Shown one piece after another: positions 36,948-58,079 of a stretch of 64,000 nucleotides of DNA. The notes beneath the pieces are model-generated. The model saw only the letters and a program-made list of their open reading frames with translations, did not search any database and had not been told where the DNA came from. The DNA is from Cellvibrio sp. 79 (GTDB lineage: Bacteria > Pseudomonadota > Gammaproteobacteria > Pseudomonadales > Cellvibrionaceae). The stretch is from assembly GCA_003056245.1 (NCBI GenBank), contig MVDH01000006.1, forward strand, positions 407,394 through 471,393. The letters run 5' to 3'. The position numbers and the translations under genes were made by a program. Position 1 is the first letter of the stretch, and each line of letters starts with the position of its first letter.

Positions 36948-37127
36948 TCAGTTATCGTTTTCGCTCTCATTTATTTTTTCAACAATGATTCTTAGCAGCA
37001 TTGAATCGTTTCCCAGCTCAATAGAATCATCACTATCTGGATCTAAAATTTTCAGCTTCTTTTCACTCAATTCCAGTTCTTTCAAAACAGCATGGCGGAT
37101 TAAACGTAATTCGATTTCGCTAAACAT
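36948..37127 (-). CDS. Tsi2-like antitoxin/immunity protein (59 residues)
   Basis: A 59-residue small acidic protein that is easy to miss by length. Its ATG (37127-37125) overlaps the TAG stop of the Tse2-like toxin (37120-37122) by eight bases, ATGTTTAG, so translation is coupled. The sequence begins MFSEIELRLIRHAVLKELEL and is predicted helical throughout, with a net negative charge, as for Tsi2, the 77-residue helical antagonist of Tse2. Sequence similarity to Tsi2 itself is weak; the call rests on position, size and charge. It is followed 31 bp later by the family A gene. Confidence 0.6.
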   Translation of the reverse strand: MFSEIELRLIRHAVLKELELSEKKLKILDPDSDDSIELGNDSMLLRIIVEKINESENDN

Positions 37128-37551
37128 TTTTTGCTACCAATTTTCCCGTAAATTTATTCACATGAACAGCATACTTTTCTGCCCATTTACCAAGCTCTTC
37201 CGCCCATTTCTCTGGCGTAATGTCCGTCAAGGAACGAACACTGTAGTGACCATTAAACTTGTTACCAGTAAGATCTTTAGAAAGGGTAAACCCGGGAGGC
37301 AATGGCGAATCTTTAGGAATAACCCACCAATCACTACCACTTCTGAAGTCTGGCTTATTAAATAGGCTAAGGCCACCGCTTTTATGGTCAATAAGTAATT
37401 GACCTCCAATATTCTTAACTTTTAGGTCAAATTTTTCCGGAGCCACCCTTGGAGGACTAAGCCGAATATAATCGAATCGCGGCTTTGTAGCTCCACCTCT
37501 ACGAAACAAGTCCTCAGGTACTTTTATAAAAAATTCTATTGGTGTGTGCAT
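37120..37551 (-). CDS. Tse2-like ADP-ribosyltransferase toxin
   Basis: A 143-residue small toxin, with no signal peptide. It follows the Tse2 pattern: an N-terminal FRRGGATKPRFDYIRLSPP, a central SGGLSLFNKPDFR, DWWVIPKDSPLPPGFTLSKD, then NGHYSVRSLTDITPEKWAEE and a terminal helix. In Tse2 of Pseudomonas aeruginosa the corresponding stretches are GGTSVFDR, DFVIPDGTDIPPDL and THYTIMP. Tse2 is a type VI secretion effector with a diphtheria-toxin-like ART fold that arrests growth from inside the cell. Delivery is inferred: no secretion domain is fused. A 59-residue gene overlaps its stop and is the probable immunity gene. Confidence 0.7.
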   Translation of the reverse strand: MHTPIEFFIKVPEDLFRRGGATKPRFDYIRLSPPRVAPEKFDLKVKNIGGQLLIDHKSGGLSLFNKPDFRSGSDWWVIPKDSPLPPGFTLSKDLTGNKFNGHYSVRSLTDITPEKWAEELGKWAEKYAVHVNKFTGKLVAKNV

Positions 37552-40823: not shown

Positions 40824-40974
40824 GTAAACTCCTGTTATTCGCACAAGGCTCATATTGATACCTAATAAATCGGCCTTGTATAGAGTTCGAAGCATAGGCC
40901 ATATCCAAAGAGATTAAAATAACGCCATATTTCAATTTTTAGCTCACATTGACAACCCCACCCTCATCCCCTAA

Positions 40975-41192
40975 CCTGCCCGCGCTGCGGTAAATCCCGC
41001 AGTCGGGATTACGACCCCCGGTAAGTATCTAACCGGCGCGAGACTTTTGTTTCGTGTCCTCGTACAGCTTTGCCTGTTGTTATGGCGGCTGGGCGGGGCC
41101 ACCTTCGGGTGGGCCGGTGTGGTTAGATCCGGTGGTCGTAACCCTGCTCAGTCCGCCCCCATGAATTACGACCTCATGGGGGTAAATGGCAA
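40975..41192 (+). ncRNA. Strongly structured RNA or leader ahead of a short gene
   Basis: GC-rich island in AT-rich surroundings. Nested hairpins: CTGCGG/CCGCAG and AATCCCG/CGGGATT (40988-41013). A long outer stem pairs TTACGACCCCCGG and ATCTAACC (about 41009-41036) with GGTTAGAT and CCGGTGGTCGTAA (41121-41142). Inside are ACAG/CTGT and GGCCACC-TTCG-GGTGGGCC with a UUCG tetraloop. A further stem CCCCATGA/TCATGGGG follows at 41158-41182. The multi-branched fold ends 30 bp before the ATG at 41214. The family is unknown to me; it could be an independent RNA or a regulatory leader. Confidence 0.5.
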
Positions 41193-41213
41193 ATCTAACC
41201 CGAGATTTTTATT

Positions 41214-41531
41214 ATGGATAATACAATTCCCCCTCCCCCGTTTCCGAATACCTGCGTTATTAAACTCGATCAACTCCAATACGCGTTTTACAAAAAATCC
41301 CGCCTTGAAATTCGTTCGCCCACCGGCGAAGCGATTACTGTACTCAGCACACCGGTGCCTGTCGTAACGGATGAGGATGCAATTCATCAACTGTATTGTC
41401 AGACGCTTATATTAGAAATGTTGTTGTATGAAGTTAATGAGCGCCTGAAGTTACCACAGTGGGCAATTAACAGTGTTGCGCGTGTGATAGACAGGATTGA
41501 TTTGCACTTGAAGAAGCAGTTGTCGATGTAA
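41214..41531 (+). CDS. Short protein with Pro-rich N-terminus, DUF3077-like
   Basis: A 105-residue protein starting MDNTIPPPPFPNTCVIKL. A flexible Pro-rich start is followed by a beta segment and two helices (YCQTLILEMLLYEVNERLKL, AINSVARVIDRIDLHLKKQL). The layout recalls the short DUF3077/DUF6124 proteins that are abundant in Pseudomonas; similarity is by architecture only. The gene is preceded by the structured RNA at 40975-41192. The short gene at 55747-56007 has the same arrangement. Confidence 0.45.
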   Translation: MDNTIPPPPFPNTCVIKLDQLQYAFYKKSRLEIRSPTGEAITVLSTPVPVVTDEDAIHQLYCQTLILEMLLYEVNERLKLPQWAINSVARVIDRIDLHLKKQLSM

Positions 41532-41552: not shown

Positions 41553-41736
41553 CGTAGGTTATGGCGGGGCGCGCAGCCTGAGGAATGAACCGCAACATTC
41601 GTAATCGCAAACAGCATATTGTTTCGAAAATACGAAAAATCAATCAACGTCACATGTATTTTATTTTTTGTGGTTGCGGAAGTATGGTCATGTTGCGGTT
41701 CGTTCCCAGGCTGCGCGCCCCGCCACAACCTACGCA
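41553..41736. repeat. Inverted-repeat (MITE-like) element, copy 2, complete
   Basis: 184 bp with terminal inverted repeats of about 46 bp: 41553-41599 (GCGTAGGTTATGGCGGGGCG to GAACCGCAACAT) and its near-perfect complement at 41691-41736. The ~90 bp core contains CAATCAACGTCACATG and a TTTTATTTTTTG stretch. Apparent reading frames across it are repeated in copy 3 and are byproducts. No transposase is present. Arm length and size fit a miniature inverted-repeat transposable element. Confidence 0.75.
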
Positions 41737-41764
41737 CCAAAATGAAAATTGATAAAACAGAGCA

Positions 41765-42190: not shown

Positions 42191-42961
42191 ATGAAAATTA
42201 CTCAAATTAGAAACGCCACAATCATTCTAGAAATATGCCAGGGTCGCATTTTGATTGACCCTATGCTCGCAAGAAAATCAACATTACCCAAGCTTCGATA
42301 CTACCGTAGCCAAGAGCGCAATCCATTGGTTGAGTTGCCAAAGGCATTTGAAAAGTTACAGAGCAGTATTGAATATGCAATGATTACTCATTGTCAAAAG
42401 GGGCATTTCGATCATTTAGACCGAGCGGGAATCAGATGGTTATTGGACAATAAAATTCAGACATTTTGTACACCTCACGACGCGGCCTATCTCAATAAAA
42501 AAGGTATTCATACTAATATTTTAATAGAAAAATGTAGTCCTTTCTTTGATGGGACAATTGAACAGGTTCCAGCTAAACATGCGAGCGGCTGGCTATCACC
42601 ACTGATGGAGCATGGAACAGGTTACTTTATTAAGCTTCCCAAGGAACCAAGTTTATATCTAATGGGCGATACCATCTTAACCGATGAAATCAGAGCATTT
42701 ATCTGCGCTAACCAACCGGATTACATTATTGCGCCTACAGGAAAAGCGCAATTTGATTTAGGCGCTCCCATATTATTGGATGAAGCAGATATTCTTGAAC
42801 TAGCCTCAATAAGCAACGGAAAAATTATCGCTAATCACATGGACGCTTTAGATCACTGCCGTATTAAACGCGCAGATTTGGCAGAGTTAATCAGCACTCA
42901 CAATTTAATTGCGAAGTTTCTTATCCCGAAAGATGGTGAAACCATAACTCTACCTATATAA
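42191..42961 (+). CDS. Metallo-beta-lactamase-fold hydrolase (UlaG-like)
   Basis: A 256-residue cytoplasmic MBL-fold hydrolase. The N-terminal MKITQIRNATIILEICQGRILIDPML is typical of the UlaG-like group, then the metal site ITHCQKGHFDHLD (~residues 75-87; HxxxxHFDH instead of the usual HxHxDH), YLMGDTIL (metal-binding Asp) and the last His in IIANHMDALDHC. Related enzymes open lactones such as ascorbate-6-phosphate lactone; the substrate here is unknown. The divergent MerR regulator and its operator point to induction by a small molecule. Confidence 0.82.
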   Translation: MKITQIRNATIILEICQGRILIDPMLARKSTLPKLRYYRSQERNPLVELPKAFEKLQSSIEYAMITHCQKGHFDHLDRAGIRWLLDNKIQTFCTPHDAAYLNKKGIHTNILIEKCSPFFDGTIEQVPAKHASGWLSPLMEHGTGYFIKLPKEPSLYLMGDTILTDEIRAFICANQPDYIIAPTGKAQFDLGAPILLDEADILELASISNGKIIANHMDALDHCRIKRADLAELISTHNLIAKFLIPKDGETITLPI

Positions 42962-42994: not shown

Positions 42995-43143
42995 TGAACC
43001 GCAACATTCGTAATTGCAAGCAACACATTGTTTCGAGAATACGAAAAATCAATCAACGTCACATGTATTTTATTTTTTGTGGTTGCGGAAGCATGGGCAT
43101 GTTGCGGTTCGCTCCTCAGGCTGCGCACCCCGCCACAACCTAC
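42995..43143. repeat. Inverted-repeat element, copy 3 (left arm truncated)
   Basis: Nearly identical to the core and right arm of the element at 41553-41736, from TGAACCGCAACATTCG to GCCACAACCTAC. The outer 35 bp of the left arm are missing. It lies 34 bp after the MBL-fold stop, so the two copies bracket the MerR/MBL gene pair. Confidence 0.7.
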
Positions 43144-55393: not shown

Positions 55394-55540
55394 CTTTTTA
55401 CTCCTTCAGATGTTGCGGCCACTTTAACCAACAACGCAAACTATATATCCCCGCACCTTATTTTTCTATATTTTGATCAACGCACCAAAGCCCCTTTGAC
55501 AACCCTCCTCCAACCCATTAATGTTCGCCCCACTGATAAA

Positions 55541-55738
55541 CACGAACGGTTTCCGCAACCGTTAGCTTTTTTTGCGATTGTTTCAATTTCGTAGGGAAAG
55601 TGGCGCCCGCCATTTGGCCGGGTGGAGAGGCGTAATATAAAACCCGCAAGGGGAATAGGCCCGGAGCCGTTCGTGTGGCTTCAGTTGACACCCGGCTTCC
55701 AGCTACTAACTGGAAGCCGTTAACTACAAAACACGAAG
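55541..55738 (+). ncRNA. Structured leader ahead of a short gene
   Basis: ACACGAACGG (55540-55549) pairs with CCGTTCGTGT (55667-55676) to close a ~130-base domain containing AACGGTT/AACCGTT and other GC-rich stems. It is followed by a hairpin GGCTTCCAG-CTACTAA-CTGGAAGCC at about 55691-55715. The ATG of the next gene comes 30 bp later. The general layout is like that at 40975-41192. Confidence 0.4.
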
Positions 55739-55746
55739 AGGTTTTT

Positions 55747-56007
55747 ATGACCGAATTACAGGATGTTCCACCCACCGAAAATCCCCCTCCCAACATCAGA
55801 CGCGAATTAGCTAGCCTGATCGATTCCTACCGAGAATTTCATCACTACTGTGCATTTTATTGTAAATCCACCAGCGTCATGCTCCACCGCTTTGGTGTGG
55901 ATCTTGATGCGGACTGCACCGAAGGTATTGAGCGCGTTGCGCAAATGGTGATGGATAAAGCAGATGATATTGAAGCGCGGTTGAAGCGGGTGATGGATAG
56001 GGTTTAG
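55747..56007 (+). CDS. Short protein with Pro-rich N-terminus, similar in layout to 41214-41531
   Basis: An 86-residue protein starting MTELQDVPPTENPPPNIRRE at ATG 55747, which follows GAGG. The Pro-rich start is followed by two amphipathic helices (YREFHHYCAFYCKSTSVMLH; IERVAQMVMDKADDIEARLK). Three Cys and four His lie in the first helix region. Its architecture resembles short DUF3077-type proteins. It is preceded by a structured leader and followed by a toxin gene. Function unknown. Confidence 0.45.
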   Translation: MTELQDVPPTENPPPNIRRELASLIDSYREFHHYCAFYCKSTSVMLHRFGVDLDADCTEGIERVAQMVMDKADDIEARLKRVMDRV

Positions 56008-56170: not shown

Positions 56171-56896
56171 ATGTTTGGACGATTATCGGCGAACTCAAAT
56201 ATCAGATACGGAAATAGTTATATGGGCCAAAATCACATTGACGTTTATGAAGTTCAACCCCACGAACTCATGATTGGTTTAATTGAGGTTATTCGGGAAA
56301 CAGAGAAAAAGATTGGCTATTATGAAATGAAAAAGATGGCAAAAGACCATCTTGATGCCAATTCAAAAATTGTTATCGAGAAAAAAGCAAAGCATCTTAC
56401 TGCACAGGAAATTAATAATCTGGCAGCAAAGCTATATTCCAAGTTGATGATGAGAGGCACTATTCAAGCGCTTTCCGCGCTCTCTCAATATCAGGCAGAA
56501 GCTAAAGGAATGACAAAGGCTAATTTCTTAAAAGAAGAACATTCGGCAGACCGACTTTCTAAACACATTAAAGCCACCGGCATCAAAAGACCACCCAATG
56601 TAGCGGCACATGCCATAGTAAGCGGGTCACATCCTGAAGCAACAGCGGCAAGAAAAATTCTTGCAAAATTCAAAATTCGTATAGATGACCCAGACAACGG
56701 AGTGTATCTTCCGAGAGACTCCAGATTTATTCCTCATGAAGAAATGCCTGACGCCAGTGCCCATGCAAAAATACACACAGATGAATATTACATCAACGTA
56801 ACCAATATTCTTAATACAGCCACTTCACCATTTGAATGCAGAGTAGCTTTAAAACTTATCGCCAAAAAACTGCGCGATGGAACTTTGGAATATTAA
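56171..56896 (+). CDS. AHH-type nuclease toxin
   Basis: A 241-residue protein with no signal peptide. A helical N-terminal part (~20-125) is followed by an AHH-type HNH/EndoVII nuclease domain: NVAAHAIVSGSHPEATAARK (first catalytic His in AHA; the family usually has AHH, here the second His is Ala), IDDPDNGVYLPRDSRF, then SAHAKIHTDEYYINV. These match the AHH polymorphic-toxin nuclease order. A later ATG at 56222 has a better-placed GGA. No secretion domain is fused. Two Imm11-type genes follow directly (two bases and 17 bases apart), the known immunity partners of such nucleases. Activity is uncertain because of the AHA change. Confidence 0.68.
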   Translation: MFGRLSANSNIRYGNSYMGQNHIDVYEVQPHELMIGLIEVIRETEKKIGYYEMKKMAKDHLDANSKIVIEKKAKHLTAQEINNLAAKLYSKLMMRGTIQALSALSQYQAEAKGMTKANFLKEEHSADRLSKHIKATGIKRPPNVAAHAIVSGSHPEATAARKILAKFKIRIDDPDNGVYLPRDSRFIPHEEMPDASAHAKIHTDEYYINVTNILNTATSPFECRVALKLIAKKLRDGTLEY

Positions 56897-57494: not shown

Positions 57495-58079
57495 ATGAAT
57501 AATATTTATTTAATTGAGAGTGATGGCTTCGATTTTAAATGGATCGCATTGGAGATTGACGACTTTATTGATCAAATACCCAAGAGATATTCGGACAAGG
57601 AAATTTTCCAATACAGCCATCACAACCTAAAGCTATCAGAAGGCTGGAAAGATATATCCTCTGAATTTATTCAAACGGAGACCAAGCAAGAACACCGGAT
57701 TCCCGACGTGTCTCTTTGGCTTACCGGAGCTTCGTTGGTTTTATCACCAAAGGCTTTTTCTGCTCTAGAAGCTTTACTTTCTCCTTTTGGGGAGTTTTTG
57801 CCAGTGTTATGCAACAACGAAAATTTTTACATCTTTAATTGCCTGTCTCTTGCTGAAGCCGATCCTGCACAAAGTGAACATATTCTTCAAGATGGGCACA
57901 TAGTCGGCGAATTAAAAATTGGATTTGATCAAAAGGAAGTATCTAGCAAGTCAATTTTTAAAACAAAATTTAATGCGTGTCGGGATATATATTGCGGAGA
58001 TACAGTTAAAAACATTATAGAAAGCAATAACTTAACCGGCGTAAAATTCTCACCCAAGCTAATTTCTTCTTTTGATTGA
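57495..58079 (+). CDS. Imm11 (DUF1629) immunity protein, copy 2
   Basis: A 194-residue protein with the same layout as copy 1: HRIPDVSLWLTGASLVLSPKAFSAL, PFGEFLPVLCNNENFYIFNCL, KSIFKTKFNACRDIYCGDTVKN and NLTGVKFSPKLI. It lies 17 bp after copy 1 in the same operon. Sequence identity to copy 1 and to 58510-59124 is low but the pattern is the same. Confidence 0.72.
   Translation: MNNIYLIESDGFDFKWIALEIDDFIDQIPKRYSDKEIFQYSHHNLKLSEGWKDISSEFIQTETKQEHRIPDVSLWLTGASLVLSPKAFSALEALLSPFGEFLPVLCNNENFYIFNCLSLAEADPAQSEHILQDGHIVGELKIGFDQKEVSSKSIFKTKFNACRDIYCGDTVKNIIESNNLTGVKFSPKLISSFD

Follow-up and report, generated by a model that had tools for sequence, protein, structure and literature searches.

The C4 antisense RNA of phages P1 and P7 is already known, as is the mechanism of its anti-words a′ and b′ (PMC5320573). 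In the c4-icd-ant operon of immI, the target words a1 and b1 are followed by the RNA, which belongs to Rfam family RF01695, then by the words a2 and b2 and a short ORF (AF234172). The CI RNA of satellite phage P4 is likewise complementary to one upstream and one downstream site in its own transcript, where it acts on transcription termination (PMC4825925); we liken it to C4 by layout, not by sequence. The IsrK/AnrP system of Salmonella Gifsy-1 combines a terminated leader RNA with read-through into an antirepressor gene, and IsrK raises anrP translation 140-fold in trans (PMC4825925). C4-like RNAs can also be numerous, the Group 1 small RNAs of Acinetobacter baumannii comprising 21 similar members in one genome, with a variable a′ loop (PMC5320573). 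A further family, sRNA-Xcc1 (RF02221), was called trans-acting in the title of a 2011 paper and has been reported upstream of symE in Xanthomonas integron cassettes, with "a divergent regulatory mechanism" (PMC12444791). SymE itself is under antisense RNA control in the SymE/SymR pair of Escherichia coli, "in cis" (PMC1891008).

Two structured leaders belong to known RNA families

The window, that is, the whole stretch of 64,000 nucleotides of Cellvibrio sp. 79 DNA analysed here, contains two examples, one C4 and one sRNA-Xcc1, of real, dispersed, coded antisense units, a known class in an uncommon use. Both units are ~0.6 kb long and run in the order putative promoter, leader, RNA and short ORF. 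A preliminary description had seen in them a dispersed pairing of RNA and short protein that could not be assigned to any known class; both RNAs in fact exceed their Rfam gathering scores in cmscan, one as C4 (41078-41163, 58.6 bits, E = 9.2e-9, cut-off 45) and the other as sRNA-Xcc1 (55616-55705, 61.2 bits, E = 1.4e-8, cut-off 53), and the dispersed unit is a known class in a new setting. The two units do follow one design, repeated in 21 C4 matches (16 over the cut-off) and 4 sRNA-Xcc1 matches (all over the cut-off) of the 5.7-Mb genome, but they represent two Rfam families, and their proteins fall into separate clusters. No C4 or sRNA-Xcc1 match over the cut-off was found in 14 control genomes. 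The C4 unit of the window comprises the following features:

40949-40977, + strand: putative promoter, based on position (TTGACA 40949-40954, 17-nt spacer, TAACCT 40972-40977)
40984-41002, + strand: leader hairpin before a1 (covarying alignment pair 48-64)
41009-41016, + strand: a1 word TTACGACC (coupling scan, position, word parsing)
41027-41034, + strand: b1 word ATCTAACC (coupling scan, position, word parsing)
41078-41163, + strand: C4 antisense RNA, RF01695 (cmscan)
41121-41128, + strand: b′ anti-word GGTTAGAT (position)
41134-41141, + strand: a′ anti-word GGTCGTAA (position)
41166-41173, + strand: a2 word TTACGACC, within a hairpin loop closed by CATGA...TCATG (coupled pair 275-287)
41193-41200, + strand: b2 word ATCTAACC, directly 5′ of a Shine-Dalgarno-like GAGA (41202-41205)
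41214-41531, + strand: 105-aa ORF (MDNTIPPPP...), of a family found in these searches only in Cellvibrio

At 41078-41163, a′ and b′ are complementary to a2 and b2 ahead of the next ORF, and the second target pair, a1 and b1, lies upstream in the same transcript; the best duplex ends 12 nt upstream of the ATG. The promoter was not called by a consensus scan, and its TTGACA recurs, by eye, in most aligned copies. The leader, in which no terminator was found, is covered by weak Rfam matches to c4-a1b1 (40971-41024, 35.7 bits, below the cut-off of 46.7) and isrK (40984-41052, 30.2 bits, below the cut-off of 50). Going by eye from the P1 c4 annotation, our guess is that mature C4 would span ~41084-41160 (77 nt); a GG stands, by eye, at the 5′ end that RNase P processing would be expected to leave (41084).

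The GC-rich, multi-branched fold proposed for this locus was borne out (leader 40985-41213, −110.8 kcal/mol, z = −6.67, 0 of 200 shuffles equally low), and the UUCG hairpin is present, inside the Rfam C4 match. The long closing stem also exists, joining 41009-41016 (TTACGACC) with 41134-41141 (GGTCGTAA) and 41027-41034 with 41121-41128; instead of just forming the body of a single RNA, it is the target-antisense pairing of a1 with a′ and of b1 with b′. The 105-residue ORF was rightly placed, its start reading MDNTIPPPP and not PPPP, and "Pro-rich" describes the N-termini of the two small proteins but not the remainder of either. The second leader, before an 86-aa ORF, is likewise structured (55535-55746, z = −4.21, 0 of 200 shuffles equally low), and its unit comprises:

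55496-55523, + strand: putative promoter (TTGACA 55496-55501, TTAATG 55518-55523), not called by the consensus scan
55539-55549, + strand: upstream word AACACGAACGG (word matching, position)
55545-55573, + strand: leader hairpin with T run, resembling an intrinsic terminator (terminator scan)
55616-55705, + strand: sRNA-Xcc1, RF02221 (cmscan)
55667-55678, + strand: anti-word loop CCGTTCGTGTGG (word matching, position)
55730-55741, + strand: downstream word AACACGAAGAGG, which overlaps the Shine-Dalgarno of the 86-aa ORF
55747-56007, + strand: 86-aa ORF (MTELQDVPPTENPPPN...), of a sequence cluster other than that of the 105-aa ORF

Compared with P1, the C4 unit has the same order of parts and similar spacings, of 27 versus 29 (a2-b2), 21 versus 18 (b2-ATG) and 18 versus 14 bases (a1-b1). 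Unlike the P1 and P7 regions, the Cellvibrio units are chromosomal, occur in many copies and carry their own words, and the 105-aa protein is an orphan without a match to Ant. In a P1-type immI region C4 controls ant; for the window ORF, Pfam and PADLOC gave no match and PHROGs only chance-level ones (E 0.15-0.23). Because no antirepressor match was found in this ORF, the C4 unit works like, rather than is, an immI region.

Target words and anti-words change together

Couplings were ranked by mutual information in an alignment of 38 Cellvibrio units (363 columns), which excluded L006, L018, L019 and L021 and from which 10 of 52 units were then removed by hand along with 4 near-identical ones. 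The top couplings link a1 with a′, a′ with a2, and a1 with the identical a2, i.e., the three places change jointly; a hairpin pair (199-210) ranked 8th, the leader hairpin pair (48-64) 11th, and b1 with b′ 13th and 26th. The compensatory changes that the preliminary description had proposed to look for are thus found in the word pairings, by the coupling scan and by permutations.

Among 18 C4 units of the window's genome, the RNA paired best with its own upstream partner in 14 (mean −36.9 versus −24.8 kcal/mol) and with its own downstream partner in 10 (−23.2 versus −17.1), with 0 of 10,000 permutations as good in either comparison. The four units that fail upstream are L006, in which this part has been replaced, L012, for which one other partner was better, and the degenerate L017 and L018. 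At L006 the sequence replacing the lost upstream words reads, by eye, as an opposite-strand Rhs-type C-terminus, and the downstream words still match the RNA. The four sRNA-Xcc1 copies of this genome, which allow only 24 permutations (417 of 10,000), preferred their own partner in 4/4 cases upstream and 3/4 downstream.

Across genomes (108 C4 and 48 sRNA-Xcc1 units), the mean duplex energy of own pairs was reached by 0 of 20,000 permutations in all four cases, and by energy the own partner ranked top in only 39 (upstream) and 12 (downstream) of the C4 units and 9 and 7 of the sRNA-Xcc1 units. An exact complement of at least 7 bases to the unit's own upstream region is present in 37/41 Cellvibrio C4, 75/76 other C4 and 44/50 sRNA-Xcc1 units, and to the own downstream region in 38/41, 61/76 and 35/50, respectively, against a background of 10-18% with other units (for sRNA-Xcc1, 17.7% upstream and 10.7% downstream over the 50 units); 0 of 10,000 permutations matched the observed value in each test. 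These sets are what was kept of 54 Cellvibrio C4, 80 other C4 and 54 sRNA-Xcc1 units after removal of near-identical RNAs; L019 and L021 were left out of the duplex-energy, exact-complement and terminator counts, and L018 also out of the all-genome same-code test described below.

In one genome of 1.5 Mb (G404), six C4 units whose RNAs resemble one another (5-10 differences among the four pairs listed) have six different a-words, each present by eye at all three places, and share a b-word among five of them. Four of these six lie in one 1.4-kb stretch (L199, G404:C9:1200-3700; start spacings 355, 598 and 354), each with its own a-word. The A. baumannii RNAs were reported without assigned targets (PMC5320573); here the leader of the adjacent ORF carries the matching word. 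That chromosomal C4 and sRNA-Xcc1 units carry private codes looks new, and the units could serve as a naturally occurring collection of candidate orthogonal RNA switches.

sRNA-Xcc1 as a proposed C4-type RNA

An alignment of 51 sRNA-Xcc1 units yielded RNA-stem couplings and no clear word couplings; since the flanks are out of register, we used the word-matching permutations instead. By these, over the 50 units, the anti-word pairs with the unit's own upstream and own downstream word. In lambdoid phages, a core, CTTCAAAG in two and CAAATAAG in one, occurs upstream of sRNA-Xcc1, as its complement in the loop, and again before the Shine-Dalgarno. The ORF starts 41-42 bases past the RNA and is an annotated antirepressor in PhiR5_2; the two other records are without annotation and have similar ORFs after sRNA-Xcc1. 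Six SymE-type units in two genomes also have their own words at all three places, SymE being assigned to four of them (G284) by scores over the model cut-off and to two (G220) by blastp cluster.

Because the phage and SymE units carry their own words at three places, we read sRNA-Xcc1 as working like C4, with a C4-type architecture. This appears to be new: no statement of sRNA-Xcc1 as C4-like was found in a literature search of mostly open-access scope, outside which the 2011 sRNA-Xcc1 paper lies, and novelty is unproven. Whereas the Xanthomonas RNA, of the same family as that in the window, was published as trans-acting, the units analysed here, among which is no named Xanthomonas locus, have a three-place code of the C4 type. 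An RNA discussed in terms of trans-acting virulence and cross-kingdom functions would thereby gain a simpler mode, as antisense of the adjacent gene, sometimes an antirepressor or SymE. SymR is encoded opposite symE in E. coli; unlike in that pair, the RNA here lies upstream on the same strand.

Copies and leaders in other genomes

C4 was found (E 1e-5) in at least 25 of 144 genomes of the family, at least 9 of 21 of the genus and at least 24 of 369 of the class, and sRNA-Xcc1 in at least 13 of 144 family and at least 20 of 369 class genomes; these counts are lower bounds, searches spanning more than 40 genomes having been run with stricter filters. Homology between copies mostly extends from the promoter region to the end of the ORF and not further. 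In the window's genome four C4 copies are degenerate (L017, L018, L019 and L021). A further C4 match there (L020, G000:C12:195122-195214, 21.6 bits), tRNA-like by eye, was rejected as a false positive.

At 12 C4 loci of other genera, both c4-a1b1 and isrK matched over the leader in 11 (4 and 5 over the cut-off, respectively), and neither did so at the eight sRNA-Xcc1 loci scanned. Given these Rfam matches over C4 leaders, isrK, c4-a1b1 and C4 seem to follow one another along a single transcript. Terminator-like sites are present in the leaders of 65/80 C4 units outside Cellvibrio, 39/51 sRNA-Xcc1 units and 14/54 Cellvibrio C4 units, compared with 1, 3 and 1 in shuffled controls and 3, 1 and 3 at 600 bases upstream. 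Most Cellvibrio C4 leaders thus differ from that of IsrK/AnrP in being without a terminator, as the eight sRNA-Xcc1 loci differ from it in having no isrK match.

Downstream proteins

The ORF caller found an ORF in 137 of 159 units and none in 22; among the clusters listed, it starts 43-59 bases past C4 and 27-56 past sRNA-Xcc1 (search windows 38-64 and 26-56, respectively). The ORFs form 51 sequence clusters, at most 7 representatives of which have a Pfam match at E 0.01 (two to Bro-N, one to SymE and one to each of four further families), leaving at least 44 without one; no single PHROGs anti-repressor model hits more than 2 of the 51. A Bro-N representative stands for a cluster of 9 ORFs, 7 after C4 and 2 after sRNA-Xcc1, and one ORF after C4 (L143) matches a model of an Icd-like cell-division inhibitor (33.8 bits, cut-off 25). 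Beyond Cellvibrio, C4 and sRNA-Xcc1 both precede antirepressors, and sRNA-Xcc1 also SymE. One genome (G284) has seven SymE places (L213-L219), four with sRNA-Xcc1, one with a SymR match of 47 bits (cut-off 61) and two with neither, and SymE may be under two different antisense RNAs in this one cell.

The largest cluster, the MDN family of the 105-aa ORF, spans 42 units in 8 genomes, all Cellvibrio, the window's genome contributing 15 of the units, and the analysis brings this conserved family to attention. It occurs in 11 of 21 genomes of the genus, and a scan of named genomes with a short peptide pattern, one that detects close relatives only, yielded 11 loci, all in Cellvibrio or a MAG of the genus. 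Searches of 50,697 phage records and of plasmid records gave no match to the 105-aa protein, and a relative (L003) has none in Pfam, PHROGs or NCBIfam; the 86-aa protein has sub-threshold Pfam matches only. No fold is claimed for the 105-aa protein (AlphaFold pLDDT 68.6, pTM 0.36; best E 1.7 in a PDB search). The Cellvibrio MDN ORF is under purifying selection, with a median dN/dS of 0.30 and 0 of 428 pairs above 1 (37 genes).

In the window's genome, a C4 match lies directly upstream of an MDN ORF at 15 of 21 places (23 rows, two split pairs having been merged by hand) and is missing from 6, four of which were rescanned and gave no C4 match. At L174, L175, L178 and L183 the MDN ORF looks intact without a C4 match, which argues against a strong toxin; as a first guess, the protein could be a mildly harmful or conditionally needed product, expressed only on loss or titration of the RNA. 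At L013, where the unit's own ORF is split, an 86-aa ORF ~536 bases past the C4 RNA resembles, by eye, the protein of the sRNA-Xcc1 type in the window.

A probable self-silencing operon and its alternatives

Very probably, each unit is a short operon in which a coded antisense RNA silences mainly its own gene. The promoter would give one transcript containing the a1/b1 leader, the ~77-90-nt RNA with a′/b′, then a2/b2 and the short ORF. The RNA would be cut out of this transcript, as in phage P1, and a′/b′ would pair with a2/b2 and block translation of the ORF; processing and repression are proposed here by homology and on the P1 analogy. In a competing state, a′/b′ would pair with a1/b1 while the leader is nascent or after it has terminated, and the leader RNA could serve as a decoy for the antisense RNA. 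The leader terminators, taken with the trans effect of IsrK, suggest the terminated leader for this part. As the a and b words vary between copies, each RNA is expected to silence mainly its own gene.

The best own duplex places at least 3 pairs within −15 to −4 of the ATG in 80 of 100 C4 and all 37 sRNA-Xcc1 units, and RNAs of other units do so on identical targets in 68% and 83%, respectively (duplex energies of own versus other RNAs, −25.9 versus −19.1 for C4 and −22.2 versus −15.9 for sRNA-Xcc1). With controls so similar, the count is weak evidence for repression, the case for which stands on the words and the P1 precedent. If the self-silencing operon is correct, P1-type RNA immunity would here act as a module of chromosomal gene control, one cell harbouring many separate specificities, and the role of multi-copy C4 RNAs, including those of Acinetobacter, becomes testable.

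The units might instead be type I toxin-antitoxin modules, with a toxic ORF and the RNA as antitoxin, a serious possibility that we nevertheless doubt. The RNA is antisense to the sequence just ahead of the ORF, sRNA-Xcc1 precedes ORFs of the SymE family (PF08845) with words before the start, including four of the seven SymE places in G284, another of which has the sub-cut-off SymR match, and the Icd-like inhibitor model is matched behind a C4. Private codes keep co-resident type I systems apart. A toxin is at odds, however, with the intact-looking ORFs found without C4 and with the great variety of the downstream proteins, most of whose clusters have no Pfam family.

An action on transcription as in P4, where pairing of the words would cause premature termination and no translational block, seems unlikely. 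The seqA/CI/seqC layout of P4 is the same (PMC4825925), and terminator-like sites are frequent in sRNA-Xcc1 units and in C4 units outside Cellvibrio, but they are infrequent in Cellvibrio C4 units, and b2 directly precedes the start codon in P1 as well as in the window.

We regard it as rather unlikely that the units are decayed prophage immunity regions, i.e., C4/antirepressor switches left after integration. Such an origin would fit the Bro-N cluster, the PHROGs anti-repressor matches, the antirepressor behind sRNA-Xcc1 in PhiR5_2 and the P1 layout; it does not fit the homology between copies, which mostly stops at the promoter region and the ORF end, the absence of the 105-aa protein from the phage records searched, the purifying selection on its ORF, or the neighbouring genes, in which the integrase domains PF00589 and PF13495 appear in one member each among 59 ORFs (best 25 of 35 families).

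A mainly trans-acting role of the RNAs, with many unrelated target genes, has been published for sRNA-Xcc1 and for its homologues in Xylella but is very unlikely here: 212 targets have been predicted in Xylella (PMC12189769) and variable a′ loops were proposed to retarget the A. baumannii C4-like RNAs (PMC5320573), but the variable loops here fit the adjacent gene better on average than the genes of other copies, which explains their variability without trans targets. GC-rich chance can be set aside as the source of the structures, since the island is indeed GC-rich but the z-scores of both leaders, the Rfam matches and the covariation already refute it.

Distribution of codes among units

Codes were parsed for 44 Cellvibrio units and not for 11; the parser moves some a-words by one base, and distinct a-words were therefore not counted. 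All 14 codes parsed in the window's genome differ. Cellvibrio has 16 same-code pairs, 0 of them within a genome against 2.9 expected (313 of 10,000 label shuffles were as low). The RNAs differ by 0-5 bases in 15 of these pairs, flank likeness is absent from 13 and extends over 171, 59 and 25 bases in the other three, and identity within the 16 protein pairs ranges from 34 to 87% (mean 0.62 versus 0.46 for other cross-genome pairs). Near-equal RNAs without flank likeness and with diverged proteins point to an RNA and code common to species at different sites.

The all-genome test (133 C4 units, 48 genomes) gave 19 identical-code pairs, 0 within a genome versus 0.78 expected, which is not significant. 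Among sRNA-Xcc1 units a counterexample is given by L116 and L128, which share a code in the fragmented assembly of G175; with L212 they make three near-identical units there, and could be a true exception to code exclusion or an assembly duplicate. The test was conceived after the data had been seen, and the finding that no code occurs twice in one Cellvibrio genome is suggestive only. The codes might be identity tags, by which a resident RNA silences an incoming unit of the same code and only units with new codes are expressed beside others. We think this improbable; if true, the units would behave like a very small mobile element divided into incompatibility or immunity groups.

Genes and repeats near the units

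Cellvibrio is a soil bacterium. Polymorphic-toxin genes lie near both units of the window (37120-37551, 56171-56896 and 57495-58079), encoding a Tse2-type ADP-ribosyltransferase, an AHH nuclease and an Imm11 immunity protein. Of 59 ORFs neighbouring the units genome-wide, three have Tse2 and three AHH (best 25 of 35 families); for 63 control ORFs both were absent from the best 25 of 91 families, among which HipA_C occurred once. Downstream of the C4 unit, a MITE-like repeat (41554-41740 and 42995-43143) flanks a gene at 42191-42961, with 121-nt direct copies at 41586-41706 and 42995-43115 (93% identity) and a 45-nt inverted pair at 41554-41598 and 43099-43143.
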